DNA of 64,000 nucleotides from Lineus longissimus (Eukaryota; Nemertea; Pilidiophora; Heteronemertea; Lineidae), in the NCBI RefSeq assembly GCF_910592395.1, contig NC_088322.1, positions 1,800,001 through 1,864,000 of the forward strand, given 5' to 3'. Positions 28,638 through 63,876 of the stretch are shown here, in pieces; position 1 is the stretch's first letter; each line of letters starts with the position of its first letter. The translations under genes were made by a program, and so were the position numbers. The notes under the pieces are model-generated. The model saw only the letters and a list, made by a program, of their open reading frames with translations, searched no databases and was not told the origin of the DNA.

Positions 28638-29250
28638 AGGGGAGAGACCATGCCAGGAGTTGCCTTGGACAGACCAAGGACACCATAGTCCCTGGGACAG
28701 TTCCACTGGAAACTGAATCAACAGAAGTGGAGGGGAGAGACCATGCCAGGAGTTGCCTTGGACAGACCAAGGACACCATAGATACTGGGACAGTTCCACT
28801 GGAAACTGAATCCACAGAAGTGGAGGGGAGAGACCATACCAGGAGTTGCCTTGGACAGACCAAGGACACCAGAGTCACTGGGACAGTTCCACTAGAAACT
28901 GAATCCACAGAAGTGTAGGGGAGAGACCATGCCAGGAGTTGCCTTGGACAGACCAAGGACACCATAGATACTGGGACAGTTCCACTGGAAACTGAATCCA
29001 CAGAAGTGGAGGGGAGAGACCATACCAGGAGTTGCCTTGGACAGACCAAGGACACCAGAGTCCCTGGGACAGTTCCACTGGAAACTGAATCCACAGAAGT
29101 GGAGGGGAGAGACCATACCAGGAGTTGCCTTGGACAGACCAAGGACACCAGAGACCCTGGGACAGTTCCACTGGAAACTGAATCCACAGAAGTGGAGGGG
29201 AGAGACCATGCCAGGAGTTGCCTTGGACAGACCAAGGACACCATAGATAC
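28082..29250 (+). repeat. 93-bp coding minisatellite, about 12.6 units
   Basis: ACCATG-CCAGG anchors lie at 28090 and 28183, 93 bp apart, and recur to about 29215. Because 93 is divisible by three, each unit encodes 31 residues in the Mab-21 frame. One unit is 92 bp (AATCACAG instead of AATCCACAG at about 28534) and causes a frameshift. Another has TAG for GAG-type sequence at 28916-28918. Long reverse-strand frames here are shadows of the repeat. Confidence 0.95.
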
Positions 29251-29470
29251 TGGGGCCGTTATCCGAGAATTGGAATCTATAGATGAGAAAGGGGCATACC
29301 TTGCTGTTGACAGTGGCCAAATGACTAGATGGAAGATGAAAAACATTCCAACTTCTCAAACAATGGCTGCATCTCCATGGCAACGCTTTTGCCGACGAGT
29401 TCACAAGAGACTGCAGAGGTTTTCATGTGCAACTCAATGTTCTAGTAACGTAAGAACAGGAACTGACTGA
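28541..29470 (+). pseudogene. C-terminal continuation of the Mab-21 gene, interrupted by TAG
   Basis: After the one-base loss near 28534, the 31-residue repeats continue in this phase. They meet TAG at 28916-28918 and stay open in the same phase to TGA at 29468. The last about 75 residues are non-repetitive and basic, containing WQRFCRRVHKRLQRF. They look like the genuine C-terminus of the ankyrin/Mab-21 protein. No known domain is recognised in the tail. Confidence 0.6.
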
Positions 29471-37800: not shown

Positions 37801-40800
37801 GAATTTAAAAGAAATGTTTCAGAATTCAACCTCATCCTGGACTGGTAACAGTCTTTATGTTGGTATATTGGAATTTAAAAGAAATGTTTCAGAATTCACC
37901 TCATCCTGGACTGGTAACAGTCTGTATGTTGGCATATTGGAATTTAAAAGAAATGTTTCAGAATTCAACCTCATCCTGGACTGGTAACAGTCTGTATGTT
38001 GATCTATATATGAATTTAAAAGAAATGTTTCAGAATTCACCTCATCCTGGACTGATAACAATCTGTATGTTGGGATATTGGAATATAAAAGAAATGTTTC
38101 AGAATTCACCTCACCCTGGACTGGTAACAATCTCTATGTTGGCATATTGGAATTTAAAAGAAATGTTTCAGAATTCACCTCATCCTGGACTGATAACAAT
38201 CTGTGTGTTGGCATATTGGAATTTAAAAGAAATGTTTCAGAATTCAACCTCATCCTGGACTGGTAACAGTCTGTATGTTGGCATATTGGAATTTAAAAGA
38301 AATGTTTCAGAATTCAACCTTATCCTGGACTGGTAACAGTCTGTATGTTGACATATTGGAATTTAAAAGAAATGTTTCAGAATTCACCTCATCCTGGACT
38401 GATAACAATCTGTATGTTGGCATATTGGAATTTAAAAGAAATGTTTCAGAATTCACCTCATCCTGGACTGATAACAGTCTGTATGTTAGCATATTGGAAT
38501 TTAAAAGAAATGTTTCAGAATTCAACCTCATCCTGGACTGGTAACAGTCTGTATGTTGACATATTGGAATTTAAAAGAAATGTTTCAGAATTCAACCTCA
38601 TCCTGGACTGGTAACAGTCTGTATGTTGACATATTGGAATTTAAAAGAAATGTTTCAGAATTCACCTCATCCTGGACTGGTAACAGTCTGTATGTTGACA
38701 TATTGGAATTTAAAAGAAATGTTTCAGAATTCACCTCATCCTGGACTGGTAACAATCTGTATGTTAGTATATTGGAATTCAAAAGAAATGTTTCAGAATT
38801 CACCTCATCCTGGACTGGTAACAGTCTGTATGTTGGCATATTGGAATTTAAAAGAAATGTTTCAGAATTCACCTCATCCTGGACTGACAACAAAATGAAT
38901 GTTAGCATATTGGAATTTAAAAGAAATGTTTCAGAATTCACCTCATCCTGGACTGGTAACAGTCTGTATGTTAGCATATTGGAATTTAAAAGAAATGTTT
39001 CAGAATTCACCTCATTCTGGACTGATAACAATCTGTATGTTGGCATATTGGAATTTAAAAGAAATGTTTCAGAATTCACCTCATCCTGGACTGATAACAA
39101 TCTGTATGTTGGCATATTGGAATTTAAAAGAAATGTTTCAGAATTCACCTCCTCCTAGACTGGTAACAGTCTGTATGTTAGCATATTGGAATTTAAAAGA
39201 AATGTTTCAGAATTCACCTCATCCTGGACTGGTAACAGTCTGTATGTTAGCATATTGGAATTTATAAGAAATGTTTCAGAATTCACGTCATCCTGGACTG
39301 ATAACAATCTGTATGTTAGCATATTGGAATTTAAAAGAAATGTTTCAGAATTCACGTCATCCTGGACTGGTAACAATCTGTATGTAAGCATATTGGAATT
39401 TAAAAGAAATGTTTCAGAATTCACCTCATCCTGGACTGGTAACAGTCTGTATGTTAGCATATTGGAATTTAAAAGAAATGTTTCAGAATTCAACCTCATC
39501 CTGGACTGGTAACAGTCTGTACGTTGGCATATTGGAATTTAAAAGAAATGTTTCAGAATTCACCTCATCCTGGACTGATAACAATCTGTATGTTGGGATA
39601 TTGGAATATAAAAGAAATGTTTCAGAATTCACCTCTCCCTGGACTGGTAACAATCTGTATGTTGGCATATTGGAATTTAAAAGAAATGTTTCAGAATTCA
39701 CCTCATCCTGGACTGATAACAATCTGTGTGTTGGCATATTGGAATTTAAAAGAAATGTTTCAGAATTCAACCTCATCCTGGACTGGTAACAGTCTTTATG
39801 TTGGTATATTGGAATTTAAAAGAAATGTTTCAGAATTCACCTCATCCTGGACTGGTAACAGTCTGTATGTTGGCATATTGGAATTTAAAAGAAATGTTTC
39901 AGAATTCAACCTCATCCTGGACTGGTAACAGTCTGTATGTTGATATATATGAATTTAAAAGAAATGTTTCAGAATTCACCTCATTCTGGACTGATAACAG
40001 TCTGTATGTTAGCATATTGGAATTTAAAAGAAATGTTTCAGAATTCAACCTCATCCTGGACTGGTAACAGTCTGTATGTTGACATATTGGAATTTAAAAG
40101 AAATGTTTCAGAATTCAACCTCATCCTGGACTGGTAACAGTCTGTATGTTGGTATATTGGAATTTAAAAGAAATGTTTCAGAATTCACCTCATCCTGGAC
40201 TGATAACAGTCTGTATGTTGGCATATTGGAATTTAAAAGAAATGTTTCAGAATTCACCTCATCCTGGACTGGTAACAGTCTGTATGTTAACATATTGGAA
40301 TTTAAAAGAAATGTTTCAGAATTCACCTCATCCTGGACTGGTAACAATCTGTATGTTAGTATATTGGAATTCAAAAGAAATGTTTCAGAATTCACCTCAT
40401 CCTGGACTGGTAACAGTCTGTATGTTGGCATATTGGAATTTAAAAGAAATGTTTCAGAATTCACCTCATCCTGGACTGACAACAAAATGAATGTTAGCAT
40501 ATTGGAATTTAAAAGAAATGTTTCAGAATTCACCTCATCCTGGACTGGTAACAGTCTGTATGTTAGCATATTGGAATTTAAAAGAAATGTTTCAGAATTC
40601 ACCTCATTCTGGACTGATAACAATCTGTATGTTGGCATATTGGAATTTAAAAGAAATGTTTCAGAATTCACCTCATCCTGGACTGATAACAATCTGTATG
40701 TTGGCATATTGGAATTTAAAAGAAATGTTTCAGAATTCACCTCCTCCTAGACTGGTAACAGTCTGTATGTTAGCATATTGGGATTTAAAAGAAATGTTTC

Positions 40801-42715
40801 AGAATTCAACCTTATCCTGGACTGGTAACAGTCTGTATGTTGACATATTGGAATTTAAAAGAAATGTTTCAGAATTCACCTCATCCTGGACTGGTAACAA
40901 TATGTATGTTAGTATATTGGAATTCAAAAGAAATGTTTCAGAATTCACCTCATCCTGGACTGGTAACAGTCTGTATGTTAGCATATTGGAATTTAAAAGA
41001 AATGTTTCAGAATTCAACCTCATCCTGGACTGGTAACAGTCTGTATGTTGGCATATTGGAATTTAAAAGAAATGTTTCAGAATTCAACCTTATCCTGGAC
41101 TGGTAACAGTCTGTATGTTGACATATTGGAATTTAAAAGAAATGTTTCAGAATTCACCTCATCCTGGACTGGTAACAGTCTGTATGTTGACATATTGGAA
41201 TTTAAAAGAAATGTTTCAGTATTCACCTCATCCTGGACTGGAAACAGTCTGTATGTTGGCGTATTGGAATTTAAAAGAAATGTTTCAGAATTCACCTCAT
41301 CCTGGACTGGTAACAGTCTGTATGTTAGCATATTGGAATTTATAAGAAATGTTTCAGAATTCACCTCATCCTGGACTGGTAACAGTCTGTATGTTAGCAT
41401 ATTGGAATTTATAAGAAATGTTTCAGAATTCACCTCATCCTGGACTGGTAACAATCTGTATGTTAGCATATTGGAATTTAAAAGAAATGTTTCCGAATTC
41501 ACCTCATCCTGCACTGGTAACAGTCTGCATGTTAGCATATTGTAATTTAAAAGAAATGTTTCAGAATTCACCTCATCCTGGACTGGTAACAGTCTGTATG
41601 TTGGCATATTGGAATTTAAAAGAAATGTTTCAGAATTCACCTCATCCTGGACTGATAACAATCTGTATGTTAGCATATTGGAATTTAAAAAAAATGTTTC
41701 AGAATTCACCTCATCCTTGACTGGTAACAGTCTGTATGTCAGCATATTGGAATTTAAAAGAAATGTTTCAGAATTCACCTCATCCTGGACTGATAACAAT
41801 CTGTATGTTGGCATATTGGAATTTAAAAGAAATGTTTCAGAATTCACCTCATCCTGGACTGATAACAATCTGTATGTTGGCATATTGGAATTTAAAAGAA
41901 ATGTTTCAGAATTCACCTCATCCTGGACTGGTAACAGTCTGTATGTTAACATATTGGAATTTAAAAGAAATGTTTCAGAATTCACCTCATCCTGGACTGG
42001 TAACAATCTGTATGTTAGTATATTGGAATTCAAAAGAAATGTTTCAGAATTCACCTCATCCTGGACTGGTAACAGTCTGTATGTTAGCATATTGGAATTT
42101 AAAAGAAATGTTTCAGAATTCAACCTCATCCTGGACTGATAACAATCTGTATGTTGGCATATTGGAATTTAAAAGTAATGTTTCAGAATTCACCTCATCC
42201 TGGACTGATAACAATCTGTATGTTGGCATATTGGAATTTAAAAGAAATGTTTCAGAATTCACCTCATCCTGGACTGGTAACAGTCTGTATGTTAGCATAT
42301 TGGAATTTAAAAGAAATGTTTCAGAATTCACCTCATCCTGGACTGGTAACAGTCTGTATGTTAGCATATTGGAATTTATAAGAAATGTTTCAGAATTCAC
42401 CTCATCCTGGACTGGTAACAATCTGTATGTTAGCATATTGGAATTTAAAAGAAATGTTTCAGAATTCAACCTCATCCTGGACTGATAACAATCTGTATGT
42501 TGGCATATTGGAATTTAAAAGTAATGTTTCAGAATTCACCTCATCCTGGACTGATAACAATCTGTATGTTGGCATATTGGAATTTAAAAGAAATGTTTCA
42601 GAATTCACCTCATCCTGGACTGGTAACAATCTGTATGTTGGCATATTGGAATTTAAAAGAAATGTTTCAGAATTCACCTCATCCTGGACTGATAACAGTG
42701 TGTATGTTAGCTGTA
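31850..42715. repeat. 69/70-bp satellite array, about 157 units, EcoRI site in most units
   Basis: The unit reads ATTGGAATTTAAAAGAAATG then TTTCAGAATTCACCTCATCC and continues to 69 bp. Some units carry one extra A (TTCAACCTC) and are 70 bp. Nearly every unit holds GAATTC. A rare variant GACAACAAAATGAATG lies near 32935, 34387, 35492, 36944, 38885 and 40477. Markers TAACATTCTG (32731 and 35288) and TTCAGATTCA (33671 and 36228) repeat exactly 2,557 bp apart. A 1,452-bp block is also duplicated (32465 and 33917). Long open frames on both strands follow from a period divisible by three and are not genes. Confidence 0.97.
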
Positions 42716-42718
42716 TTG

Positions 42719-44607
42719 GACAGGCTTATTCTAAAACACCTCGGTTACAACTTAGTAATGTTTTCAATATAAAATATAAACAGCCTCCTTTTGGTTGAAG
42801 CAGTGTTTTGTGTCGCTACTATTAGTATAACTGCTTTGAATGCGACAAAATATGGAAGCAGATTTCTGCAGGGGGGTCTAAGTTGCCGTTCAGGCTCTTT
42901 ACTACTTACTTTTGCCTTCAACTGTCAATCATACACAGACGGATTTTCAATACAGCGCTGTATGAAATATAAAGCTTGATTTCTACAGGAATATTCTGAC
43001 ATAAATACAGCAGGTGAAATCAGGCAGTTAGTAGCAAAAGGGTTAAATATGTCAGGTGCTGTACACCTGATTGTGAGTTACCTGATTAATTATGCAAACA
43101 TTCCTGGTTTATAGCATTGATTGACATCCCCAGTGTACAGGGTGTCTGTAAAAAGGTAATCTTGAAATAATGAGTTGATACAAGCTCAGATTAACCTTGT
43201 CTTGGGTAGAATGCCTTTATATCCAAAATGTAAGTTTAATGTGAGTGTTTTTGTTCTTTATTTGTGACCCCACCACACCCGCCAGAAGCACTGATGATAT
43301 GAAATTATGTAGACGTTGATCCACCCTTTAGATTATGACCTCATATGTCTCATGAACAGCAAACCTGCCTTCCACCAGTCAATATGGCAAACATAGAATC
43401 CAAAATACATTTCAAAGAAAGTTTCATGAAGTTCACCCAAAGGAAAATGTCTCATGTTTTGTCAGAAAACTTTGATTTCTCCAAACAAAGTCCATAAAAG
43501 CTTGTTGTTTCCTCTGAACATATTTATGAATCTCTCAAGCATCAGGAAAGTTCCACAGATGGATTTCTTATCAAAATGTACATAGCTGATTCGCTAAGCT
43601 ATACGAACACGTGGATAACTCCAATGGCCCCTCAAGCAATATGCTACCCATTTTGGTTTGATGGGCCACATGAGGTCAACAGAGTGAATTCCTCTCACCA
43701 ATGAGGCATTATCAGAAAGCCGATTGCTGACTGGCCGATTGCTGACTGGCCGATTGCAGGCACAGACCAAAAGGGGGCGCACGGACACATGCACCCCCTC
43801 CCCAATTAACCATAATCTTTGAAATAGATTATGAAATTTAGGAACAAACCGGAAATTTGGAGGAGAAATGCAGCGCATGCCTACTTTTTTCTGTCACCTG
43901 GATACGCCCCTGGATTGGACGCTGTCAGTGATGATGTCATGGATGATGCTCTGTTACCATGACAACACTGGGGAAGCTCACCAAACTTCTATCGCACAAC
44001 ACACGTCACAGAGCTGACAGATTCTTGTCACAGGCAAGGACCTGACCATAACATGGTAATGCCATCATAAGTTGGAAACTTGTACTAACAGACCCACAAC
44101 TGTCTGAGTGGACCCAAATATAGCCACAGTCCCCTGTCCCTTGGAGGGACAGCCAAGTATGTGTTGGTTTTTCATTGTGACATCTAGCGAAGCTGCGGTT
44201 AGCATACACGGTTAACAACCTTCCCATCTTCAGCGAGTTGAAGTCTCTGCACCTTACCAAGGTATTTGCAGCTGAGAGACTTAATGTCGACACCACAGAT
44301 TCATCTTGTCAGCCTCTCATGGTTTCATGGGTCACAAGTGATGCAGGTAACTAGTCTTGTAGTATGTTATCATATCCGATCAGCAAAATTTAAGAACAGC
44401 AACATCGAGCAGCAAAGATCAGAAGAGGCTGGAATGTTCCAAGGTAAGTATCTCCAAGATTTAGCTTACAATGATCAGGAAATGGTCATTATATTAGATA
44501 AGGAGACTTAGCTCTTCTAATAGGGGGATTTGGCAGCCAATAATACGTCATATGCAATATCAGTATCCGACAATAACAGGCTTTATGTCAGTCAAACCAG
44601 TACTCAC
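42719..44607. other. Region between the 69-bp satellite and CDK5RAP3 exon 7
   Basis: No further CDK5RAP3 exons were found here on the minus strand. There is a short 17-bp tandem (CCGATTGCTGACTGG) at about 43722-43757 and a 7-bp dyad TCAGGTGctgtaCACCTGA at 43052-43070. Nothing else is supported. Confidence 0.45.
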
Positions 44608-49829: not shown

Positions 49830-52763
49830 GCTGTAGCTGGAATGGAATAATTTTAGGTTTGAATTATGTGCTCGTCATTTTTGGAAGAATTACGAAAAAG
49901 AAATGACGTATTTTACTCTTCTTGTCAAGTAAACATTCATTCGGTTATCGGCTAATCTTCATCACTGATCTGGGTCATGGACATTTCTTTCAAACAACTG
50001 GTAACTGATCTTAATTTACTAGAAGTAGAAGTAGAATGACTGTGGCAATTAATGATAATTCACCAATTGACTGATCAGTGACATTTCGAATATATTTCTG
50101 TCATCATATAATATACACAGTCTACGCCTATGCATACCAGAATCCCAGGACCAGAAATCTGCAGAATTACGACGGGGACACTTTATTGATGTCATGATGT
50201 TGTTGTTGCTGTTGTTGAAAGTAATGTCACTGGCGTCTAATCTCACACACACGAGACAGAAGTAAGCGTTAGCTGCTGAGCACAGAGCTACTGTTGTGGA
50301 TCTGGGTTTCAGGGGGGGGGGAAGTATTAACTAAAATATATATGCATATTCAGTGCAATATGCAGTGTTTCCTTGGGTTGATTTTATTATACTCATTCTG
50401 GGATGATCCACAGCCAAATGCATGTAGTTAGGTGAGGGAACGTATATTTCTGCTATTATGGGATTATATGGAGATTATAAGCCATTCACTTTGTATGTAA
50501 TACATGTCTGGTACAAGGTGTAGTGTACATAGTTTGACATGGCATTTAGGATGAAGTTATGTAATGTAGGTATTGTCTGAATGAGTAGGGGCCGTTTCGT
50601 CACCCTTGAACATGGGCTATTGTTCAGGGTGTCAGGGGTTGGGGAGGGCCTGAGACTAGGGGTTTTGTTATGCCACGAGACACGAAGAGAGAAAGACCTA
50701 AAATATACCTGTCCAGAGAAATAACCGAATTGCCTGAAGAGACCAGCTACATCGCTGTAAACAACCTAACTTCCGCCATCGGCATCATCACCTGACGCAG
50801 CGCCAGCTGTCGGATTACCTGCTAAGTAGCGCCGCGCCAAGTGGCTAGTATTCATATACGCCCGAAATTACAACACTGGTGTCAGTTAAAAGAACCCGTT
50901 GCTAGCCATTTTTACCGCCATATTTTTACTGCAGCGTACAACACATTGCACTGCAGTGCATTACAAACACTGTGGATTATTTTGTACATGCAAAGCACAA
51001 CGTGTATGTATAGTACTTAGGCCTATACTGCATTGCATACACACACACATGGGTATGAAAACCAGGAGAGAGCCCTGAATGTTAAAATCGTATTTGTATT
51101 GTGGAGTGCAATTAATACACTAGTTGTTTAATTGTCTCCTGGACACTACTTTTTTCATAATTTGTGCATTTTGACACAGTCATGGTGGATTTCTGCCAGG
51201 TCCAGTTGTTGATGAATAGCGACAGCCATCTTGTTGAACTTTAATTTCGCACATTCGATTCGGCTTGCGTCCCAATTAATTAAGTTTAATTATATTTGAC
51301 TTCTGTAACCATAAGTATTGACTGGAAGGACGTTGCCCCGTCTTACTTGTGTTTTTGGGTTGCATGATATTCTTTTTATGTGTTGAAGTCAAATATTGGA
51401 TTTAGGCAAGTTTAGTGTGTGCGTAGATTGTAGTCAAATGGTGGCGCGAAATTCAAAACGACCTGCATTTCATTAACTCTTTAGTGTTGAATCATTTTGT
51501 GGTTATTTGGAAAAAGTGAACTGAATACATTTGTATAGTGACATTTAGGGTGTGTCCTTGTGCATATTTTCATGGTGTCAATTTTGCTGGTGTTTGTGCG
51601 GAAAATTATGGTTTGAGCAGACGATATAAAATAGGTGATACCGGTATTAACAATATTTGGTAATAAATTTTGAAAATAAATATCGGTTGACAATATTTTG
51701 ATATAAAACCTAGTCGGTGATATCATAATAATTCTCGTATTATTAAGAGGAGTGTAAAGTGTTCTAAAGTGCATTTATTTATTCTCATTTTGTGACTGAA
51801 ATAGAAATTTCTGCTAAAATTAGGAAATAAATTAGATATTGCACAGCAGAAATAAAGATTAACGGTGAAAAGTGTTTTAGTAAATAGAGTGAAGTTATAG
51901 TAAAAAGTGAAATTCAACATTGTTGTTTTCTTTTTCCTTTCATCCTAAAATAACAGAGGAATAGTGGTATATCAATTTATATAAATTATTCGACATTCTG
52001 GTATTTGGTGAATGAATGTAGATTCATAGATACCACATTGTGTTGAAATTAAATAGTTTTTCTTGTCTCCATTACTATAGCTAACCGTGTATTCTTTTTT
52101 TCACCTAAAGTTAGTGATTTAGTCTCATTGGTTAAAATTTAAATAGATCACTCACTGCGGATAGATTAACCCTTGTTTGCCAATTGAAATATAATATTAA
52201 CCCCTGGATATATGTTTACCGTTGGGTCAAATTAAATTTTATATTGGTTAAATTAACCATTGGCTACTTTCTGGTATAGGAAATATAGTTAACCCCTTGA
52301 GGTCTATTTTTCAATAATTACATTAACCCCTTTGGGACATAGTAAAAACTAGTATATTGCTTGGCATTGTGGTTTTTTTGTGTTAAATCGTGCAATTACG
52401 GTACTTGTCTTTTCCTAAATTAATCTGTGATTTACGGCATTAGGATTTGAATTGAGGAGAGTTTTTTTTGTGATGAGGTAGGAGATATACAGTATTTTGA
52501 TCGTGCTTAGGCAAAATCCCTACCTTGTTATATTGTACAGTTCTCTGCTGACACGTATAGATACCTGATCAGATTATTATATAGATACCGAGTGTATCAC
52601 ACCTGATTCTTGCATAGATTTAGATGATACTATACTTGGTTCTTATAATCTATACCGATACAATCTATACCAGGCATCCCACAAGGCCTGAAAACATAAT
52701 TTCAATACCGGGACTTGACCATTACCTTGATTCTTCTGATACTTGAGATCTGTCCAAATCAGA
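49830..52763. other. Region between CDK5RAP3 exon 1 and the retrotransposon gag
   Basis: No gene was recognised. It should contain the CDK5RAP3 promoter and any 5' LTR and leader of the element. I found no sequence here that repeats after the integrase, so no LTR pair is supported. TTAACCC words recur irregularly at 52165-52330. A G-run lies near 50312. Confidence 0.4.
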
Positions 52764-55700
52764 ATGTCGGATCAAAGGAAGTCTCCTATTTCCGCTAAGC
52801 CGGAGGACTCGCAGCCCCACATGACTACGTCAGAGATGCAGGAACCTATCACATTGGTTCGTCAGCCACATCCACTTAGTGTTCCAGAGGCTACAGTCCT
52901 TGACCTCCTACAGCTAAAAGGGATTGGTGAAACCCGTGCCGGCACCGTGGTTAACTATTGTCAGGATCGACTGCGTGAGGGAAGAGACTAGAGAAGCAGG
53001 TCCAGGACAGATTGCCGCGAAAATTTATAAATAGTTCGGGAAACTTATAACATTCTCTTGCAGCATCCTCTTGCAAACAGGGCCTACTCCTTACGCATCT
53101 TTCTGATTGAGGGAGTAAACATATCGAGGCCACATATCGAGTGATCGATGGCCGGATTTGTCAGGATGTCAAGCCAGCTTCCCAAACTATTTATAAATTT
53201 TCGCGGCAATCTGTCCTGGACCTGCTTCTCTAGCCTCTTCCCTGCGTGAGGGTAAGCCTTTCATCCTAGATGAGTTACGGCTGCCATCTATAGGTGGAAA
53301 TCGGAATACCTGGATCCAATATTACCTGGAAGGTAAAATCGAGTTATACTTTGATACCGAACATCACCATGCCGTACTCCTTGCACCACCGCCAGGGGGT
53401 TCTGTCTCACATTGCGGAGAATGCATTCATCTGAAAAATCAGTTGGATACCTTGATGAGAAAGAGTGATGAAGAAAATGGGCCGTGTAAAGAATGTGCCG
53501 GATTGAGAAGCCAGTGTGTGCAGCTAGGACTGAAGATTGAGGAGAAGAAAAAGGAGTTAGAAAACCAGAAATATACGAAGGTCCAGCAGAGGGAGAAGTT
53601 CTTGACAGAGACGGAGAGGCGCCAGTCGGATCACGTTAACGGGATGCGAGAGCTCAATGAGAGACATGATTCGTCAACCAAAAAGATAAGGTCTTACTTG
53701 GAAGTAGCGGAGTATCGCCTGCAGGCCAACGAGGAAGAATTCGAGAAACAACAAAATACCAATCATTCTCTCCAGGAAGAGGTTGGGTCCATGAGTAATA
53801 TAATAGGTCTTTTGGAGGAGGAGAGAGACTCCTTGGTAAGTTCTATCGATTGTCAGACAAATGAGTTTGAGAAATTTACGATGGAGAGAGAGAAATTGTT
53901 AGGACAGAATATTTATCTCGAGGGTGCTCTCAATGAGGAGAAAGAACAAATTGCAAATATGCGACACGCTCTGACAGAGTCGGAAAATCAAAAGAACTAT
54001 CGGCAGAAAGCTTTGAATGTTGAGAGAGAGAAAACATTAAAAGCTATTGATTCAGCCAAGAGCTACCTGGATAGGATCTCCAGTTTAGAGAAGACTGCTC
54101 AGAACGGGACGATGCCACCAAAGCATGAAGCAAACGAGCCATACCTGAAACAGTCACAGGATGTCCGCCAAAATAGCCAGCAATGTTATCCGGAGTCTTC
54201 GCGTGGACCACCACAGATGCAGGACACCAGAAAAGACTGCTATCAGCAAAACTGGACCGAGACCTCCCAGCGGCGAATAGAACAACGGGATGTAAGATCA
54301 CATCAGTTACCACATGGTCGTCAACGGTCTTCTTCCCGAGGAAGGGGAGGAAGAGGGTACAGCAGAAATTCTTATTCGATCGATTCGCAGCCACCATACG
54401 TCCAACCCAGGGGTATTTCAAACCATTGGGACCAGCTGTCAGCTGATTCTCAGCCAGGATTCGCTCCAGTGAAACAGGAAATACTTCCCGACACACGAGC
54501 AGAGGGATTCTTTGCAAGCCGCCATGACACAAGAATAGAGGGAACATTCTTCGGTCCACCTGAACACCGATTTGAGGGAAACTGTCCTGAGTTCGGAAAT
54601 GAGAGAGCGGCGTACCTGTACATTTCTGGACCCTCAAAGAAGAAATCACCATCCTCTAGTTCCAGAAGGAGGTCTAGGACAAGAAAGGAGAAGCCAAAGA
54701 AGCGTGTTAGCCATAGCAACTCAGAGAGTGATTCCGAGTCCGAGAGTTCAAGAGACACCGAAAACTCTGCCTCAGAATCAGAAAGGTCGGGAAAGGGACA
54801 GAGACGGCGGTCTCCACCTCGTAACAAGCTTCCAATGTTCACAGGTAAAGAAAACTGGGGCACTTTCCTGTTTCAATTCCGGAAACAGGCAAAGCGGTAC
54901 AAGTCGGATAAAGAGGAAAAAGCTGATCGCCTATACGACTGTTTAGCAGACCAAGCGCTGTTGTACGCTATTCAGATGAAAGCCCATAGCTATAAACAGC
55001 TGACGAAACATCTGTCGCAACGTTATCAGAAGTCAGTCGCACCCTCTATTGCCAGGAGAGAGGCCATGACGTGTAAGCAAAAGGAGGACGAACCTCTTGA
55101 AGACTTCGGCCAACGTGTGTTACAAGCTACTATGGGAGGTTATCCAGATGCCCAGAAAAAGACGGTAGACACCCTAGCTGTAGAAGTGTTTTTTCGAGGA
55201 ATGAGAGACAAGAAAGTAGCTGAGATAGTGGTGGAGAAGCAACCTGTAGATCTTTTTGAGGCCCTAAAATGCTCCAAACAGACAGAGGCTAATCTGATGA
55301 CCCTCTATGGTACAGGCCGGCCTTCTCTTCGCCACGTGACCTTTTGTGAAGAGGATGACAATATTCCGGTAGTTCGGGCTGCACGAGTAGAGGATCCTAA
55401 ATCCGGAAGTAGTGATAAGCCTACAAGACCGTCTACCCCCAAATCTGATGGTACTTCAAACACTCAGGTGACGAGCCCACAGTCCATGAATGACTTGATT
55501 CCACAGCTGTTGGCAGCGGCCTTGGGTGATTACTTTCACAACCAAGCACCTGGATTCCAAGGATCAAGGAACAACCCACCACCATTTCGTCAATCCATGG
55601 ACAGAGGAAGCTCACCATCACCGGCTGGAAATGGACGTTCGTTTTCTAGTCCTAGACGTGAACGGACCCCGTCTCCGCGTAGAGGGAATAATTGTTACAA

Positions 55701-55869
55701 CTGTGGAGAAAACGGACATTTCTCCAAAGACTCCCCGAGACCTCATAGACCATCCACTTGCTACAAATGTGGAGCCGAGGGTCATTTCGCCAAGGACTGT
55801 CCGGTGCCTCTGAATTGTTATAATTGCGGACGAGAGGGCATTTTGCGAAGGAGTGCCCCCAGCCAGTGA
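52764..55869 (+). pseudogene. Gag of the Gypsy element, split by an inverted-repeat element
   Basis: The ATG at 52764 starts MSDQRKSPISAK. Residues about 45-70 (LLQLKGIGETRAGTVVNY) resemble a helix-hairpin-helix, and a second GIG-like turn (LPSIGG, 53281) follows after the insertion. From 53443 there is a long Glu/Lys-rich coiled coil (to about 54100), then a Gln/Arg/Ser-rich linker. A capsid-like Retrotrans_gag region follows (about 54835-55310: FTGKENWGTFLFQFRKQAKR, LEDFGQRV, VEVFFRGMRDKKV). Zinc knuckles come last. The first reads CYNCGENGHFSKDS and has lost its final Cys, the second is intact (CYKCGAEGHFAKDC), and the third is frameshifted near 55840. The insertion duplicates nine bases and frames on both sides agree. 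Confidence 0.85.
52980..53241. mobile_element. 262-bp MITE with long terminal inverted repeats (MULE-like) inside gag
   Basis: Arms of about 52 bp start GGAAGAGACTAGAGAAGCAG on the left and match the reverse complement of the right end at 53190-53241 with few differences. CTGCGTGAG is duplicated at 52971-52979 and 53242-53250. A 9-bp duplication with long inverted repeats is typical of Mutator-like MITEs. There is no coding capacity. Confidence 0.9.
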
Positions 55870-57799
55870 ACCGAGAGAAAAGGTCACAGAGTCCGTTAAA
55901 CGATTCCGGGCGACGCTAAGCGGTCAGGCTGTTGCCCCAGAAGGAAGACGAGACCGTAAAACCATCATAGCCATAGAGGACATTCCAACGTGGCCAGATT
56001 ATGCGGCAGACCAGCGTATCCATGTGTCAAGTGGAGATGCCAGTCTATTTCCCTTAATTCCAGACATAAACAGCAAAGTATCACTGTGGAAAGGGGACAT
56101 AACTCAATTGAAGGTGGATGTCATAGTCAACGCTGCCAATCAGTCCTTACTTGGAGGGGGTGGAGTTGATGGCGCTATCCACGATGCAGCTGGACCGGGA
56201 ATTCGCCAAGAGAATGCCGGACATGGGGGATGTCAGTGTGGCGAAGCAAATATTAGTGGAGGATACCAGTTACCTGCTCGATATGTCATCTCTTCAGTAG
56301 GCCCTCAGGATAAAAGGGAAGACAAGTTGACAAGCTGTTATGACAAGTCTCTAGAACAAGCTAAAAAGCATGGACTTGGTTCTATAGCGTTTCCATGCAT
56401 AGCCACAGCGCTATACGGGTACCCACCTGAGGAGGCCGTTCGGGTAGCTCTACGAACAGCACGCCGATTCCTAGAGAAACACGGAGACTGTATAGATAGA
56501 ATCATATTCTGTGTTTTCCAGGACAGTGATGTCAAGCGATACACCTTGATACTACCCACATACTTCCCATTGACAGATAGGACTACCAAGTTAATTAGAC
56601 GAGTTTCAGTAGACGAACCTGAAGACTCTGAAGATGACCAGACTGATACACAACCGAGTGAGTTACCTCCGGCCATGACAGAAATTTCGAGGGATGTATC
56701 GCGCAGAGATACGCAACCTGAACTTAACCCTTTGAAGGATGTCACCCCATCATCAGCCGGCCCAGACGTTGGTGTTAAAGAGCCAGTCCGAGACAGTGAA
56801 CTAGGAGATTCTTTGGCATCACCTTTATCGCCGGCACAGGACGACATTCCGGGAAAAATGGAAGATACACACCGGAGTACCAGCGGAGCCAACCAGAGTA
56901 GTCCCACGGAGATTGGAAATCTTTCTACAGATAGTACCCATTCATCCACCAACAGGAATTCCACCTATGTCAGTGCCAATCGAGTTGAAGGCAGCAAGAT
57001 AGCATCATTGTCGTTACCCTGCAAGATATTTGGAGAGAACATTAATGCAATTGTAGACACTGCGGCGATGATTACCATTCTCAGCCAAGAATTCTATGAC
57101 AGTCTTGACAATCCTCCTCCACTTGGGCGAAGCATTGACATTAAGGGTCCAGGAGAGGGAGGCCGTATGAAGGGTTACTTGATTGATGACACTGAAATCA
57201 CTATTGCTGATCATGACTTTCCCATTGATGTGTGTGTGGCACCCATCAGCGATACTATGTTATTAGGGATTGATTTTCTGGATGCTCATGAGTCAATTAT
57301 CAATTTTAAAGATTATACCGTGAAGCTGGACCAGGAAACAGCACCCGCCAGGATCAAGAGACATCCTACGAAGGGGAATTTTGTCAAGACTGTTCAAACA
57401 AGCCGAGATACTGTGATTAAACCGAACTCAGCCACTTTCTTCTCTGCCCGAGTCATCAGACCAGTGAGGAACAACACTTGCGTGGTTTTCCAGCCTGACA
57501 ATACCATCGATGGTCTACAATTTCCTGCAGTGTTAGCCAAAAATGGATCCACCATTTCACTACATGCTGTAAACCTGACGGACCGCTACATTACCATCCC
57601 AGCTCAAACTCAGATCGGCATAGTCACAGAGGCTCTAGAGATAGTGGAGGAAGACCCTGAGGACGAATGTACTATCAGAAGCGTCCGGACCTCCGATGAA
57701 AAATTGGATTTAGCGAGTATCAAGCGGATAATGCCCTCACACTTAGTCGACCTTTTCAGTAGATCTTGCACTAACTTGACGGAAGAACAATCCATCTAA
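55853..57799 (+). pseudogene. Macrodomain plus aspartic protease segment of the retrotransposon polyprotein
   Basis: This frame is open from before 55853 (GTG, not a genuine start) and overlaps the end of gag. Residues about 76-245 are a MacroD-type macrodomain: GDITQLKVDVIVNAANQSLL, GGGGVDGAIHDAAG, CGEANISGGYQLPARYVIS and SIAFPCIATALYGYP. The Asn of NAAN and the Asp of GVDGAIH, which bind ADP-ribose and support hydrolysis, are kept. The STG-x-YG loop reads ATALYG, and the usual VIHTVGP reads VISSVGP. A Ser/Thr/Asp-rich linker follows. The retropepsin has IVDTAAMITILS (Asp at about residue 402; DTA in place of DTG) and LLGIDFLDAH. TAA at 57797-57799 is in phase with the RT that follows. Confidence 0.9.
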
Positions 57800-57808
57800 G
57801 TAGGGGAG

Positions 57809-58154
57809 TTGCTTATCGAGTACCAAGATGTGTTTTCAAAACACGATCTCGATATAGGATGTGTTGAGGGAATAGAGCATAGCATCGACACTGGCAACCA
57901 TGCTCCAGTGAAGCAGCGGATGAGGCGTACCCCCATTGGCTTTGAAGAGGAGGAGGAAAAACACTTAGATAAATTACTCGCTCAAGGAATCATCACCCCT
58001 TCGAGTTCTGCTTGGGCATCACCTCCAGTCTTAGTCCGAAAAAAAGATGGTTCTGTGAGGTACTGCTTAGACTACCGGGTCCTGAATGCCTGTACCGTGA
58101 AGGATTCGTTTCCTATTCCATCGATTGATCAGTGTTTAGACACAATGGCTGGTA
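57809..58154 (+). pseudogene. N-terminal part of Gypsy reverse transcriptase
   Basis: In the same phase as the protease frame, directly after TAA 57797-57799. It contains LIEYQDVFSKHDLDIGCVEG, the RMRRTPIGFEEE linker, LLAQGIITPSSSAWASPPVL and VRKKDGSVRYCLDYRVLNAC, and ends at the CLDTMAG position where the Harbinger element is inserted. The nominal first codon (TTG) is not a start. Confidence 0.9.
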
Positions 58155-58612
58155 TTTATAAAAACCAAGCATATGCTTATTCTTGGATTTTCAAGTGTTA
58201 AGTACGCTGCATATTCATAAAACCTAAGGTAATGCTTGTACCTGTAACCTTATGCTTCAAGTATAAGTGTCTGCTTTTCAGGCATCTTGCCAAAACTTAA
58301 AGTCTAAGCTTCTGCTTCTTTCCATATTTATAAACACGAGTATTAAGCATATGCTATAAGGATATCCTTAGATTTTTTAAGGTAGCTTCAGACCAGGCTT
58401 GAACTTCGAAGTAGGAAGACGTGTTTGACATGGCAGCTTTTCTTGCACTTGCGGGGCGACATCCAAAGGAGTACACCCCAAGAAAATCATGTTGCCCAGC
58501 ATTTCATCGACGATTTTATCGATTTGATGAGCAAAATGTTGAATGGTAAGCTGATCATTTTTTAGAAGATAGTGGAGAAACTCGTGGCGGGGCACTGACA
58601 GTAAAGACACAA

Positions 58613-59221
58613 ATGGAGACTTTCCTTCGATATATATCGGACCCAGGGTTTCAGATGGGTGTTGCTGAGGATGTTGGAATTTTCCAACCCACCGTGTCAA
58701 GAACATTCCACGCAGTACTCGACAAGATTGTTGAAAATGCAGGACTGTGGATACATTTCCCAAGCACGGTGCATGAAATGCAGTCAGCAATGGACAACTG
58801 GCAAACGACCTATGAGATGCCTTGTGCGATAGGTGCTGTCGACTGTACCCACGTCCGAGTTCTGAAGACACAAGGGAGGCATGCACATGGCGACGAATAC
58901 GTAGGCCGGAGTGGAAAGGCTACGTTAAACGTTCAGAGAATTTGTGATGCAAAGGAAACGTTCACAAGTATTGTAGCCGAGTGGCCAGGGTCTGCACACG
59001 ACAGTAGAATATGGAGAAATTCGGTAGTTTGTCATCGTTTGTCCACTATGAGGACGGATGCATTACTGCTAGGGGATAGTGGATACGGCATTGACCCCTG
59101 GCTCTTTACACCTTATGGGAATCCTCAGCAACCGGAAGAGGTAACGTTTAATAGGATTCTAACAGTTGGTGTACAAACCAGAAGGTTTACATGCACTAAG
59201 GACAGGCATGACTATCCGTGA
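58613..59221 (+). pseudogene. Harbinger (HARBI1-type) DDE transposase, incomplete
   Basis: Residues 1-202 show the PIF/Harbinger core. QPTVSRTFHAVLDKIVE is the helix-turn-helix-like part. GAVDCTHVRVL holds the first catalytic Asp, LNVQRICDAK and WPGSAHDSRIWRNS follow, and LLGDSGYGIDPWLFTPY holds the second Asp. The third catalytic Glu is normally in an ENxFG segment after the FNRILT block. It is missing because the frame runs into VGVQTRRFTCTKD and stops. The phase is open upstream to about 58547, where a TAA interrupts it. The gene is catalytically dead. Confidence 0.88.
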
Positions 59222-59494
59222 CCTCAATAACAAAGGATTTCCCCCTTCCCAGGGCAGCAATGATTGCCATAATCACGAAACCGACCAGCCTTACACCACA
59301 AATACCACATGGGAAATCTAATTTCACCCTGTTATGCAGTATGAGGAATTAAGCATAAGCTTAAAAATTACAAGCCAAGCATCATCCACAAATGCTTGTT
59401 TTATAAATATGAAATCAAGTATAAGGCTATGCTTCTACTTAATTCTTTAAGTATTAAGTACATGCTTAAAGAACATGCTTATAAGCATATACTT
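59222..59494. other. Harbinger 3' subterminal region
   Basis: AT-rich non-coding DNA with many AAGCATA/TATGCTT and TTAAGTA words that mirror the 5' subterminal region (58200-58370). Confidence 0.5.
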
Positions 59495-59514
59495 GTTTTT
59501 ATAAATACCAGCCA

Positions 59515-61932
59515 TTGGCCGGGAGTCTGTTCTTCAGCACCCTTGATCTGTCTTCTGGATATTACAATCTGAAAGTGAAAGAGTCAGACAGGCATAAGAC
59601 GAGTTTTCTTTCGAAATTTGGGATTTTTGAACATGTCCGGCTCCCTTTTGGGTTTTGCAACGCTCCAGCTACGTTCCAGAGAGCCATGGAACTCGTGTTG
59701 AGAGGACTAACCTGGAAGACAGTGTTGGCGTATTTGGATGATGTGATCGTCTTAGGAAAATCATTTGAAGACCATATGGAAAATCTGAGCGAAGTGTTTC
59801 ACCGTATGAGAATCAACAATCTGAAACTCAAGCCAAAGAAATGCAATCTATTTCAAACATCCGTTGACTTCCTAGGGAAATTAGTATCATCAGAGGGTAT
59901 ACAGATCAGCCCCACAAAGCTGGATGCCATCAGGGAATGGCCTCCCCCTAAGAGTCCAAAAGAAGTAGCTTCATTTGTCGGGTACGCTTGTTACCACCGT
60001 GATTTTGTCTCGCGCTTTGAGGAGAATGCCGCCCTCTTGCGCAGACTCATTGCCGGAGGTAGAAACAAAGAACCTTTCGAATGGACTGATACCGAACAGC
60101 GCGCCTTTGAGAAAATAAAGGAAGCCCTAGCATCTTCGCCATGCCTGGCATACCCAATGCCAGACGGCAACTTCATACTAGATACAGATGCCTCAGATTC
60201 CTGCGTAGGAGGGGAGCTGTCCCAGGTACAAGAAGGAGTAGAACGGACAATAGCGTATGCGAGCAATGTCTTGACAAAAGAACAGAAGAAATATTGCACT
60301 ACCCGTAAAGAGTTACTAGCAGTCATAAAGTTTACCAGACAATATCGGCATTACCTTATAGGGAGACCATTTATACTCCGGACGGACCATGGCAGCCTGG
60401 CCTTGTTAATGCGTTTCAAGGATCCTCATGGTCAATTAGCCAGATGGATTGAGGAGCTACAACACTATGATATGACCATAGTACACCGTCCTGGCAGGTT
60501 GCATATTAACGCTGATGCTCTTTCCCGGATTCCTTTGAAAATGGCAGAGTGTGATTGCTACCGTGCAGGAGAAAGCCTGGAAGATCTTCCTTGCGGAGGG
60601 TGTGAGTACTGCACACGAGCACATACAGAGTGGGAACGCTTTGCTGCAGACGTGGATGATGTAGTACCCCTTGCTGTTCGATGTGTTACAACCAACCTTG
60701 GAGAAGAAGTTTCCATTCCAGAGGACCAGGAGCCGGTTGTTATATCTGAAAATGAAGAGGAGATTGGTGAAGAACATGTGATTGTTGAAGGTGAAGAGAG
60801 TCCGAATTGGGTACAAGCTTATACTCAGCAGGAGATACGTCAAAAGCAACTGGATGACCCAAATCTTAGCCCCATTTTTACTTGGATTGAAAATGAAGAG
60901 CCGTCAGAAGCCGAAGTTTATCTCAATTCTCCAGCCACCAAATGCATGTGGAACAGTAAGAAACAACTTCACCTGAAGGAAGGAGTGTTATACTATAAGT
61001 GGGAAGCTGGCCAAGACTCTCGAGACCTGTTGGTAGTGCCTGAGTCACTTATGGAAGAAATCTTTCTTTGGGCACATGACAAACGCGTTGCAGGGCATCT
61101 GGGACAGAAGAAAACACTCACGCGTATCCGTCAGTCTTTTTACTGGTACAAAGTCACCCGGGATACCATGGACTACGTAAGATCATGTGGCACCTGCAAT
61201 AGATACAAGAAAGCTAGAAAGAAGAAAACTAATCTCCGGGCCTGTCATGCTGGTTACCCAATGGAGCGGCTACACATAGACATCCTTGGTCCATTCACGC
61301 CAAGTGATAAGAACAACGTCTATGTTCTGAGCATGATTGATCAGTTCACCAAGTGGATAGAATGTGCCGCCTTACCTCAACAGAATGCGCAGGTGGTGGC
61401 AGAAGAACTGTTAATCCGCTTCATAACCACTTTCGGATGTCCACTTCATCTACACTCTGACAGAGGGCTTCAGTTTGAGGGACAGTTATTCCAGGAGTTG
61501 TGTCGAGTTTTAGAAATCACCAAGACCCGGACAACCCCTTACCACCCTTCCGGGAATGGACAAGTTGAACGTTATAATCAAGTGATCCTCCAAATGATAA
61601 GGTGTTTTGTGGAAGGGAACGTGACTTCCTGGAATGAGGAGCTGCCACTTTTAACCATGGCATTGCATGCAACCGTCCATAGACAGACTGGATTCACCCC
61701 AAACCGCTTGATGTTAGGACGGGAGGTTCATCTGCCTATAGATCTCATTTTAGGCACGTACAAACGAGGTTTAGTAACTCCGCAGGTTTGGGTTAAAGAC
61801 CTTCAGAGGAAACTTACGGAAGTTCATCTCCTTGCCAGGGAGGCACTTAAGAGTTCTCAGAAACGTCAAAAGAGGGACTATGATGTGAAGTTGCTTAAGT
61901 CCACTTTTCACCCTGGGGATGTGGTATACTGA
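59515..61932 (+). pseudogene. Gypsy RT (remainder), RNase H and integrase
   Basis: Coding resumes mid-RT. LPFGFCNAPATFQRAM precedes the YLDD catalytic box (residues 73-76). The connection and RNase H follow: ILDTDASD, TRKELLAVIKF, FILRTDHGSL and HRPGRLHINADALSR. A Cys-rich insert (DCYRAGE...CGGCEYC) comes next. The integrase has an HHCC zinc-binding region (HDKRVAGHLG...CGTC, about 520-563) and a D,D35E core with Asp in LHIDILG, Asp in HSDRGLQF and Glu in GQVERYN. TGA at 61930-61932 ends the frame and the next part is in phase. TTG at 59515 is not a true start. Confidence 0.93.
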
Positions 61933-62523
61933 GTGAACGATGCAAGTACCTTAGGTGTTGGTAGAAAGCTGAAGCCCCCGTGGGCAGGCCCTTACCTGGT
62001 GACGGAGTCCCGCCCTCCTATCTACAGAATAAGATTTCCAAAGCGAGAAACTTTTGTTCATCATGACAAGCTGAAGTTGTGTCACGACCGGACTCTGCCT
62101 GTCTGGCTAAAGAGAGTCAGACATGAGTTATTGAACTCACATCTCGACCCAAGCAGTGAGGGAGAACCACATGAACCAGGAGCGGGGGATCCCGGAGCGA
62201 CAGAGGAAGCGTCGACCACAGACAAACAGCGAGACTCTGAAAATAGACAAGATGGTGAGAGGGATGGTTCTGACCAGGAGTTGAGGGAACTTTTGGAACA
62301 GAGTGAAGTGCTAGAGGAATGTGACGGATCATTGGACGACAGAGGCGACCAACAACTTCCTAATTTTGATGAGGGTGGCCTTTCAGATGATAGCGCCGAT
62401 CGATTACTTCAACACTTGGAAGGTTGTGAGCTCCCACGATTGTTCGAAGAGAAAGTGACCACAAGGCATGGCCGTAAAGTGAAACGCCCTGCCTGGATGG
62501 CGGATTATCATTGCAACCAGTAA
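61933..62523 (+). pseudogene. Integrase C-terminal (GPY/F-like) domain and acidic tail
   Basis: In phase with the preceding frame after TGA 61930. It contains LKPPWAGPYLVTESRPPIYR, the GPY/F-type module of Ty3/Gypsy integrases, then HHDKLKLCHDRTLPVW. A Glu/Asp-rich low-complexity tail ends GRKVKRPAWMADYHCNQ. TAA at 62521-62523 is the natural end of pol. Confidence 0.88.
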
Positions 62524-62908
62524 CGTCCCTTTGTATGATGGAGGGGACTGGTCCAAACTGTCCCAAGTTGAAGTGTTATCGCATTTCCTTGGAATATGCT
62601 GGGCCGACTGTAGCGATAAACCAGTCAAACTTAACAAATTGACAGAATAATATTTTTAGAATTCTTTCAAGTTAATAGAGTTATGAAGTTCCTAATCATG
62701 TACATATATACATACTTATTTTTCTTGGTTCGGTTCGGAGTGTCTCAAGTTGAAGTGTTATCGCATTTCCTTGGGATGTGACAAACTGGCTGTAGTTTTA
62801 CCTGAACAAACTTGATTGGAATATGGTAATGTTGGCGACAAGGATGTTTCCACTTATATGTATGTACATAGATTGAGCCTGTTTTTATTTCTGTTGATAG
62901 GACTTACC
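62524..62908. repeat. Pol-R2 spacer with an imperfect direct repeat
   Basis: CAAGTTGAAGTGTTATCGCA followed by TTTCCTTGG occurs at about 62567 and again at about 62748, with weaker similarity continuing about 40 bp. The two copies are about 181 bp apart. The 5' flank of the element holds no copy, so these are not shown to be LTRs. Confidence 0.7.
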
Positions 62909-63876
62909 ATGGAACTGGAGCCACTATTGAAACCAAATCCAAAAAGATTTGTGGTCTTCCCAATTCAATACCCTAAAATTTGGGCCATGTATAAGAAAGC
63001 TGAAGCCTCATTTTGGACGGTGGAGGAAGTTGATCTGGCTGACGATATGGCAGACTGGAATCGGCTGAAAACAGAGGAACAAAGCTTTATCAAACATATC
63101 CTGGCATTCTTTGCAGCGAGTGATGGGATTGTCAACGAAAATCTAGTGGAACGGTTTAGCAAGGAGGTACAGGTGACTGAGGCTAGATTTTTCTATGGAT
63201 ATCAAATAACTGTGGAAAACATACATTCAGATATGTATGCTCTCCTGATAGAAACATATGTAAGGGATATAGAGGAAAAGAATCATCTTTTCAATGCCAT
63301 TGAGACAATGCCCTGTGTGAAAAAGAAGGCGGAGTGGGCATTGAAGTGGATCAAAGATCAGCGTGCCACTTTTGGGGAGAGAGTTGTTGCGTTCATGGCA
63401 GTGGAGGGGATATTTTTCAGTGGGTCGTTTGCCGCCATCTTTTGGTTGAACAAGAGAGGATTGATGCCGGGATTGACCTTCAGTAATGAGCTGATCAGTC
63501 GGGATGAAGGCCTGCACTGCGAGTTTGCCTGTTTGCTCTTCCAACTTCTCGTTAATAAACCTGAAAAGAGTAGGATTTTAGAGATAATCACAGAAGCAGT
63601 CAAGATAGAAAAAGAATTTTTGTTGGAAGCCATACCTTGTTCCCTTATAGGTATGAATGGTGATCTGATGGGAACCTACATCGAGTTTGTGGCCGACAAA
63701 TGGTTAACAGAGTTGGGTTGCCACACTCATTTTGGCTAGGAAAATCCATTTCCGTTTATGGATCAAATCTCGATGGAAGGGAAGACAAACTTTTCGAGAA
63801 GAGGGTGGGAGAGTATCAGAAAGCTGGAGTAATGGATGGTCAGTCCTGGGAGTTTTCTTTAACTACTGAGTTTTAA
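62909..63876 (+). pseudogene. Ribonucleotide reductase small subunit (R2/RRM2-type), intronless, C-terminus disrupted
   Basis: The ATG at 62909 starts [20 protein letters not shown]. The frame covers the whole class Ia R2 core without introns. Iron ligands are all present: Asp72, Glu103, His106, Glu166, Glu200 and His203. The radical tyrosine is Tyr110 (ENIHSDMY). R2 with R1 reduces ribonucleoside diphosphates to deoxyribonucleotides in the cytosol. TAG at 63737-63739 cuts the frame after LGCHTHFG. The family sequence continues in phase (ENPFPFM, then MEGKTNF), then a one-base loss near 63776 shifts it. EKRVGEYQ follows in the other phase, and an R1-binding-type end (TTEF) stops at 63876. The lack of introns suggests a retrocopy. 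An upstream in-frame extension from 62816 has no family match. Confidence 0.9.

Follow-up and report, generated by a model that had tools for sequence, protein, structure and literature searches.

A Ty3/Gypsy element in the window, the whole 64,000-nt stretch analysed here (C15:1800001-1864000 of a 391-Mb assembly), carries a macrodomain between its gag zinc knuckles and its protease. We read it as a decayed copy from a Ty3/Gypsy clade whose Pol starts with an ADP-ribosylhydrolase-type macrodomain that would reverse host ADP-ribosylation, and we give this reading, in which the activity is predicted from sequence, a probability of about two in three.

The element in the window

The macrodomain and a retropepsin share a single open frame of 661 codons without a stop (55814-57799, +), located between the gag zinc knuckles and the reverse transcriptase (RT). 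The Macro profile (PF01661) is matched at all 118 of its positions (E 1.5e-33, residues 105-212), with NAAN and GGGGVDGAIH both present, and the retropepsin profiles PF13650 and PF13975 match residues 402-490 (E 1.6e-07 and 6e-07). A complete macrodomain in frame with the protease, between knuckles and retropepsin, is what an earlier sequence-only reading had described, and this description stands. The upstream ORF (53197-55869) contains the CCHC knuckles (PF00098, E 5.8e-14), and the region downstream (59485-61929) encodes RVT_1, RT_RNaseH, Integrase_H2C2 and rve. The element is assigned to Ty3/Gypsy by the order protease-RT-RNase H-integrase, seen in the window and in its copies, by the CCHC-knuckle gag upstream, and by its RT, which groups with the Gypsy type in an RT tree; the RT-integrase region is 46-56% identical to 120 listed Gypsy-order proteins, the best 120 of 3482 matching proteins. 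The features of the window copy (copy A) are as follows, in window positions.

52764-52977, +: start of gag, from the first in-frame ATG up to the MITE (frame 52740-52991; 52663-52981 is 99.7% identical in copy B)
52978-53243, no strand: MITE-like insertion with 68-nt inverted ends, absent from copy B (from sequence and comparison with copy B)
53244-55839, +: gag, with a coiled-coil-like N-terminal part (by eye), capsid part and CCHC knuckles
55814-57799, +: open frame macro-linker-protease, the N-terminal part of Pol after the predicted frameshift
55895-55901, +: slippery heptamer GTTAAAC of -1 type in the gag/pol overlap
55908-55957, +: possible H-type pseudoknot, 6 nt 3' of the heptamer (GGGCGAC/GTTGCCC and GCGGTC/GACCGT)
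55917-55919, +: stop codon of the gag frame, 3' of the slippery site
55931-56587, +: putatively captured MACROD-type segment, comprising the EDIPTW region and the macrodomain (Pfam core 56126-56449)
57017-57283, +: retropepsin
57797-57799, +: nonsense codon in pol of the window copy
57800-58142, +: start of the RT
58143-59517, no strand: Harbinger-like DNA transposon nested in the RT (DDE_Tnp_4 at 58550-59221; 37/38-nt inverted ends), absent from copy B
59518-61929, +: RT, RNase H and integrase
61930-61932, +: nonsense codon close to the integrase C-terminus, window copy
61933-62523, +: integrase C-terminal part and Pol tail

Besides the two inserted DNA transposons, the disabling changes seen in the window copy are a single frame break in gag and a pair of nonsense codons in pol. 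The break lies at the third gag knuckle, which copy B reads in one frame with the end of gag. The earlier argument that the key residues were kept while the rest decayed is therefore not borne out: with so few disablements overall, an intact macrodomain says little by itself. Identity between copies A and B runs from window position 50284 to C15:1865028, with a 500-N gap at the 5' side of B. An Rfam search returned no match.

Class and fold of the macrodomain

Among solved structures, the window macrodomain matches MACROD1 (5.1e-49), a Trypanosoma brucei macrodomain (5fsu, 1.4e-47) and MACROD2 (1e-46) most strongly, and GDAP2 (7.1e-35), PARP14 (7.8e-22) and coronavirus nsp3 (1.1e-06) more weakly. 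An AlphaFold2 model of 56078-56587 (pLDDT 91.9) has human MACROD2 as its best structural match (TMq 0.91, rmsd 1.3), with MACROD1 also among the first, as for a MACROD-type fold. The sequence-only reading had delimited the domain to this same interval, which does hold the macrodomain; the host-derived part, however, starts earlier. Similarity to animal MACROD begins at about 55931 with an EDIPTW-like stretch common to the MACROD proteins of Liolophura and Biomphalaria.

The signature residues are well preserved across the six element copies found in this genome (listed below). NAAN is kept in 6/6, as is GGGG-x-DG with its Asp, and the following His is present in five of the six; the window copy, B, C and C5 read as MACROD, C13 has GGGGLDGTIH and C1 replaces the His with Gln (GAIQ). 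The loop motif TG-x-YG is TGLYG in the other five copies and TALYG in the window, where a near-invariant Gly has been lost. Key residues, said earlier to be retained, are so for NAAN and GGGGVDGAIH but not for this loop Gly. Measured against 56 other MACROD rows, picked from the best 120 of 929 matching proteins, the window domain keeps 41 of the 46 columns that are at least 95% conserved and 13 of the 55 that are conserved below 50%. By sequence and modelled fold it is a complete MACROD-type macrodomain, for which ADP-ribosylhydrolase activity is predicted.

Copies in the genome

A macrodomain search of this one genome scored 14 candidates and gave nine matches, corresponding to seven loci; these counts are lower bounds.

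A (window), C15:1800001-1864000: element copy
B, C15:648836: 95%
C, C2:16572430: 94%, one stop
C1, C1:10417579: 57%, one stop
C5, C5:18093842: 56%, within a 1245-aa open frame holding macro and RT matches
C13, C13:12860293: macro in two frames
Host-type MACROD gene, contig C3: separate exon-like pieces

In piecewise searches gag was found upstream of the macrodomain at all six element loci, so that the genome holds at least six copies and other family members do carry the domain; their lacking it would have told against the sequence-only reading. Protease, RT and integrase follow it in five of the six (A, B, C1, C5 and C13), and copy C ends at the linker/protease border. That reading had also allowed for a host exon merely abutting this copy. 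The two are distinct: at the C3 locus macro pieces occur alone and scattered over 2.6 kb, like an intron-bearing MACROD gene, and the window version is intronless and runs into the protease. The macrodomains of C1 and C5 are identical at 197/204 residues, so the copies fall into three lineages: A/B/C, C1/C5 and C13. Pairwise identity of the macrodomain is 51-53% between lineages and 56-57% between each lineage and the C3 host gene (167 or 168 positions).

Copy C1 provides a bounded element (C1:10411265-10423124). Its 404-nt LTRs are 98.8% identical with TG...CA ends, a PBS-like sequence (TGGCGACGAAGATGGGAT) begins 3 nt past the 5' LTR, a purine tract precedes the 3' LTR, and both flanks carry the 4-nt target duplication ATTG, all features of a Ty3/Gypsy element. 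A second repeat pair of 811 nt lies outside these LTRs in swapped order and is not counted as part of the element. In the stretches compared, no LTR pair was found for A, B, C, C5 or C13.

A predicted frameshift signal at the gag-pol junction

How is the macrodomain translated? The gag frame in which the third knuckle is completed stops at 55917-55919, and the heptamer GTTAAAC ends 15 nt earlier, in the phase from which a -1 slip leads into the macro frame. GTTAAAC is unique within 53197-58140, where seven other canonical heptamers occur in any frame. The score of the candidate pseudoknot in copy A is equalled at 1 of 400 other element positions; a plain fold of the 99-nt junction is weakly better than shuffles (z -1.35, with 18 of 200 shuffles folding as well). 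A heptamer in phase before the gag stop and a downstream structure make up, as a sequence signal, what -1 frameshifting calls for.

Relative to the macro frame, the heptamer has a constant position in 6/6 copies, as GTTAAAC in A, B, C, C1 and C5 and as TTTAAAC in C13. The gag frame meets it in 0 phase in A, B, C1 and C5, and the phase is also right in the related locus C5b (see below). Copy C has lost knuckle sequence through a deletion that fuses gag with the macro frame, and C13 has its knuckle in the same frame as the macrodomain; in both, gag reaches the macro frame without a slip, and neither shows the -1 step directly. Copy C5 has an extra frame break between the frameshift site and the macrodomain. 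The pseudoknot rule gives a score of 23 for each of A, B and C and of 22 for both C1 and C5, the last with a different first stem; it detects none in C13, although GCGGTC and GACCGC both occur there. Since a heptamer precedes the macrodomain in every copy, the domain probably stands first in Pol and would be translated through -1 frameshifting.

Selection on the domain and its origin

Selection was assessed by Nei-Gojobori counts on aligned codons, comparing copy A with C1, C5 and C13, in that order.

Macrodomain: pS 0.85, 0.83, 0.79; pN 0.31, 0.32, 0.31
Integrase: pN 0.29, 0.27, 0.31
Protease: pN 0.39, 0.38, 0.39
Gag: pN 0.47, 0.38 (296 codons), 0.44
RT-RNase H: pN 0.16, 0.16, 0.26

Between lineages, pN of the macrodomain is far below pS, which it would approach without constraint, so the domain has been kept by selection. 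The constraint is similar to that on the integrase and stronger than that on the protease and gag. Such a count, of the dN/dS type proposed in the sequence-only reading, upholds its claim that the domain was functional in the parent element, through saturated synonymous and limited nonsynonymous change between lineages (pS 0.79-0.85 against pN 0.31-0.32) and not through the single-copy argument on which the claim had been based. Within the A/B/C lineage the picture differs: A and B are separated by 2 synonymous and 10 nonsynonymous changes in the macrodomain and A and C by 4 and 12. These pairs are without recent constraint, fitting dead copies.

Could the segment be a MACROD retrocopy or host exon that landed in the window copy by chance? 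It is clearly of host MACROD ancestry and it is intronless, as such an insertion would be. The segment nevertheless sits at one and the same position in all six copies, which span three lineages, behind a conserved heptamer and with saturated synonymous divergence, and we reject a chance insertion as having a negligible probability.

We suppose instead that the source was a spliced mRNA of a host MACROD-type gene, and that it was acquired most likely once, before the three lineages split. A macrodomain tree, another check proposed earlier, has now been built with the copies included (60 rows, seven long-branched or odd rows of an earlier set having been omitted): all six macrodomains from the elements fall into a single clade (91/85), to which the C3 MACROD gene is sister (88/80), neither node being starred. 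It fits, without proving, one capture from the host lineage. Earlier macro trees without the element copies gave the window domain no firm placement. The step of a single capture is weakened by distances, as the element macrodomains are equally far from the host gene (for copy A, pS 0.84 and pN 0.31 over 168 codons) and no farther from it than from each other. Separate captures from a constrained host gene could be an alternative, and part of the constraint would then possibly be host-side.

Three MACROD-type proteins encountered among the macrodomain relatives (P0083, P0046 and P0053) are closely related to one another, and one of them is fused to a THUMP domain.

RT relatives and a second hydrolase class in the same slot

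A search of the genome with the RT, in which 123 of 1405 candidates were scored, led to four loci without a macro match, whose upstream sequence was inspected.

C5b, C5:13865807: RT 63%, OARD1/TARG1-class macrodomain
C4 locus, C4:11815472: RT 73%, C1-like, 5' part lost
C10 locus, C10:8252686: RT 61%, macrodomain not found upstream
C3 RT locus, C3:1967129: RT 51%, macrodomain not found upstream

Between its CCHC knuckle and its protease, C5b carries a domain that matches OARD1/C6orf130 PDB entries only, over two pieces of 105 aa (2.5e-18) and 193 aa (1.3e-16) split by one in-frame stop; OARD1 is the best match over the domain. Both the Lys that opens the second piece and the Asp of GCGLD, which we take to be catalytic in TARG1, are retained. 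The C5b gag ends right at a slippery site (GTTAAAC, then TAG) and the macro frame lies in -1. The macro pieces do not share a frame with the protease, which lies about 1.3 kb away, and the interval contains a further open frame that looks THAP-like by eye and may be an insertion.

The RT tree combines eight element RTs of this genome with 65 of the 120 listed proteins. All eight, together with the metagenomic protein P0123, form a nine-row clade (100/99), within which the MACROD-type lineages, P0123 and the 5'-truncated C1-like copy on C4 group together (92/59) and C10 and C5b are a sister pair (91/57). A test of the five macro-bearing RTs as one group against the 65 did not reject it (p 0.322); an AU test of the same five gives p 7e-75 but is ill-posed, as the truncated C4 copy sits inside the group, and we disregard it. 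Because C10 is a close RT relative without a detected macrodomain, the domain is not essential to the whole clade. At C10:8253600-8257100 (L035) a second retropepsin-like stretch (by eye) separates gag from the main protease, at the site where the others have their macrodomain.

Outside this genome, a custom profile found no macrodomain in the 120 listed RT-integrase relatives (up to 1426 aa), which is uninformative, none of the 85 with a protease having 150 aa or more upstream of it. A search of viral contigs for relatives confirmed none, and a search of genome contigs gave three distant loci in symbiont or MAG records. Two RT-integrase relatives (L001, 33%, and L002, 31%) lie in contigs labelled as bacterial symbionts of marine animals and are probably host contamination.

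A different arrangement is found in P0081, a protein encoded on a 2044-nt metagenomic contig, in which a full macrodomain (5.1e-40), with a short tail behind it, comes after an integrase C-terminal domain (PF22938, 1.5e-09). Its integrase part is 36% identical over 131 aa to the Gypsy-type P0122, and its macrodomain groups with bivalve MACROD proteins in the 60-row tree (94/83); in an earlier tree without element copies, a clade of P0081 and the window domain was not rejected (p 0.389). The signature reads NSAK, against NAAN, and GGSG, making hydrolysis by this domain doubtful.

What the macrodomain may do

In the reading we prefer, ribosome slippage would make Gag-Macro-Pol as a minor product, packaged together with Gag, and the protease may release the macrodomain from it. 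In line with the role against PARP-type responses that the sequence-only reading had put forward, the domain would then remove ADP-ribose that PARP-type enzymes of the host attach to Gag, integrase, nucleic acid or host proteins nearby, which would keep particles or integration complexes active. That two hydrolase classes occupy one slot speaks for hydrolysis as the selected function.

Alternatively, the domain may be a reader, since macrodomains can bind ADP-ribose without hydrolysing it. Like the chromodomains of other Gypsy integrases, it would steer the integration complex or particle to ADP-ribosylated chromatin. The macrodomain of P0081, placed after the integrase, where targeting domains sit, and with its signature Asn lost, would suit that role. 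In the clade of the window element, however, the module lies at the N-terminus of Pol, far from the integrase, and most copies have hydrolase-type signatures; the C5b module belongs to the OARD1/TARG1 enzyme class and keeps the presumed catalytic Lys and Asp. We consider a reader unlikely. Less likely still, and by a good distance, is an action on small metabolites (O-acetyl-ADP-ribose, ADP-ribose phosphate) that would adjust NAD-linked metabolism or the nucleotide supply of the particle and have nothing to do with defence. Structure records do call MACROD2 and OARD1 O-acetyl-ADP-ribose deacetylases, but a retroelement has no evident use for such an activity, and two classes in one slot would fit de-ADP-ribosylation of protein or nucleic acid as well or better.

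Removal of host-added ADP-ribose remains our preferred reading; to a broader, tentative one we give slightly less than an even chance. The stretch from the frameshift site to the protease may be a cassette slot that has taken both a MACROD-type and an OARD1/TARG1-type domain, while another Gypsy lineage bears a MACROD-type domain after its integrase; these would be convergent answers to ADP-ribosylation-based restriction in invertebrate-like animals. We know of no report of ADP-ribosylation-based defence against LTR retrotransposons. A MACROD-bearing clade and a relative with the other class in the same slot suggest host ADP-ribose tagging as a pressure on the elements. If two hydrolase classes have been kept in one slot of a Gypsy clade, they point to ADP-ribosylation as a pressure on retrotransposons themselves, and PARP-type restriction of LTR retrotransposons becomes a testable question. 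The MACROD-type and TARG1-type modules also form a natural enzyme pair, whose substrates would reveal the linkage that is targeted.

Neighbouring sequence

After pol, copies A and B both have an intronless ORF for a ribonucleotide reductase (RNR) small subunit (window 62909-63840 and C15:643062-643889). The other RNR matches listed, from four candidates scored, are exon-like pieces on C4 only. Against the C4 gene the ORF has pS 0.93 and pN 0.15, which indicates long constraint before its end was disrupted; no LTR bounding it was found. Between the pol stop and this ORF lies a 64-nt direct repeat (62550-62613 and 62732-62795, 78%), and a PBS-like sequence occurs at 62833 (13/18, a score shared by three other sites in the window).

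Past the window, C15:1864301-1865083 is a 261-aa open frame with zinc-finger-like cysteines and 'LDSHFHLD' (by eye), within which the block of A-B identity ends at 1865028, and C15:1867373-1872057 contains open frames resembling Polinton capsid and chromodomain-integrase genes (by eye). Elsewhere in the window are a satellite array (1-16562; 137-nt unit, 121 copies, 95% matches), an open frame resembling ankyrin repeats (by eye) and, after it, a 93-nt repeat without stops in several frames (25005-29470), and a minisatellite with long open frames on both strands (31855-42720; 69-nt unit, 157 copies).

Comparison with known systems

Is this arrangement new? The sequence-only reading knew of no standard Gypsy architecture with a macrodomain in this place, and the literature listings that we searched showed no Ty3/Gypsy macrodomain. 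For LTR retroelements at large the claim needs qualifying, since ORFs for macro-domain or CNPase proteins are reported in fish epsilon-like endogenous retroviruses (PMC4977317, citing Basta et al. 2009). These are likewise animal LTR retroelements said to carry macro-domain proteins (PMC4977317). They differ in belonging to the Retroviridae and, as described there, in having the macrodomain as an additional ORF, whereas the window element is Ty3/Gypsy, its RT being nearest to Gypsy-type proteins among the 120 listed matches.

A macrodomain fold within a retroviral polyprotein is also seen in an endogenous retrovirus of Rhinella marina (BFVD A0A2U9K508, 873 aa; TMq 0.87). There it is part of a protein labelled Gag in a vertebrate retrovirus, and its identity to the window domain is low (23%).

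In position and expression there is also a parallel of another kind. The dUTPase of betaretroviruses is a captured host enzyme that lies after nucleocapsid and before protease and is made through -1 frameshifting. It differs from the window module in fold and substrate, and its carrier is a retrovirus, not a Gypsy element.

Viral macrodomains reverse host ADP-ribosylation and have a counter-defence role. Those of coronaviruses, alphaviruses, rubella virus and toroviruses, which are RNA viruses, share the fold and are parts of viral polyproteins, but the structural matches named as such are 18-24% identical to the window domain, which lies much nearer to cellular MACROD. Among viral proteins the top structural match comes from Scale drop disease virus, a fish DNA virus and not a retroelement (ORF_067R, BFVD A0A0K1L687, 621 aa; 46% identity).

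Both modules also have cellular counterparts. With MACROD1 and MACROD2 the window module shares the fold, the EDIPTW-type N-terminal stretch, NAAN and GGGGVDG-x-IH; these are free-standing enzymes, whereas the window module is part of a polyprotein. OARD1/TARG1 (C6orf130) gives its class to the macrodomain of C5b (C5:13.87 Mb), and it too is a cellular enzyme, whereas the C5b version sits between gag and protease.
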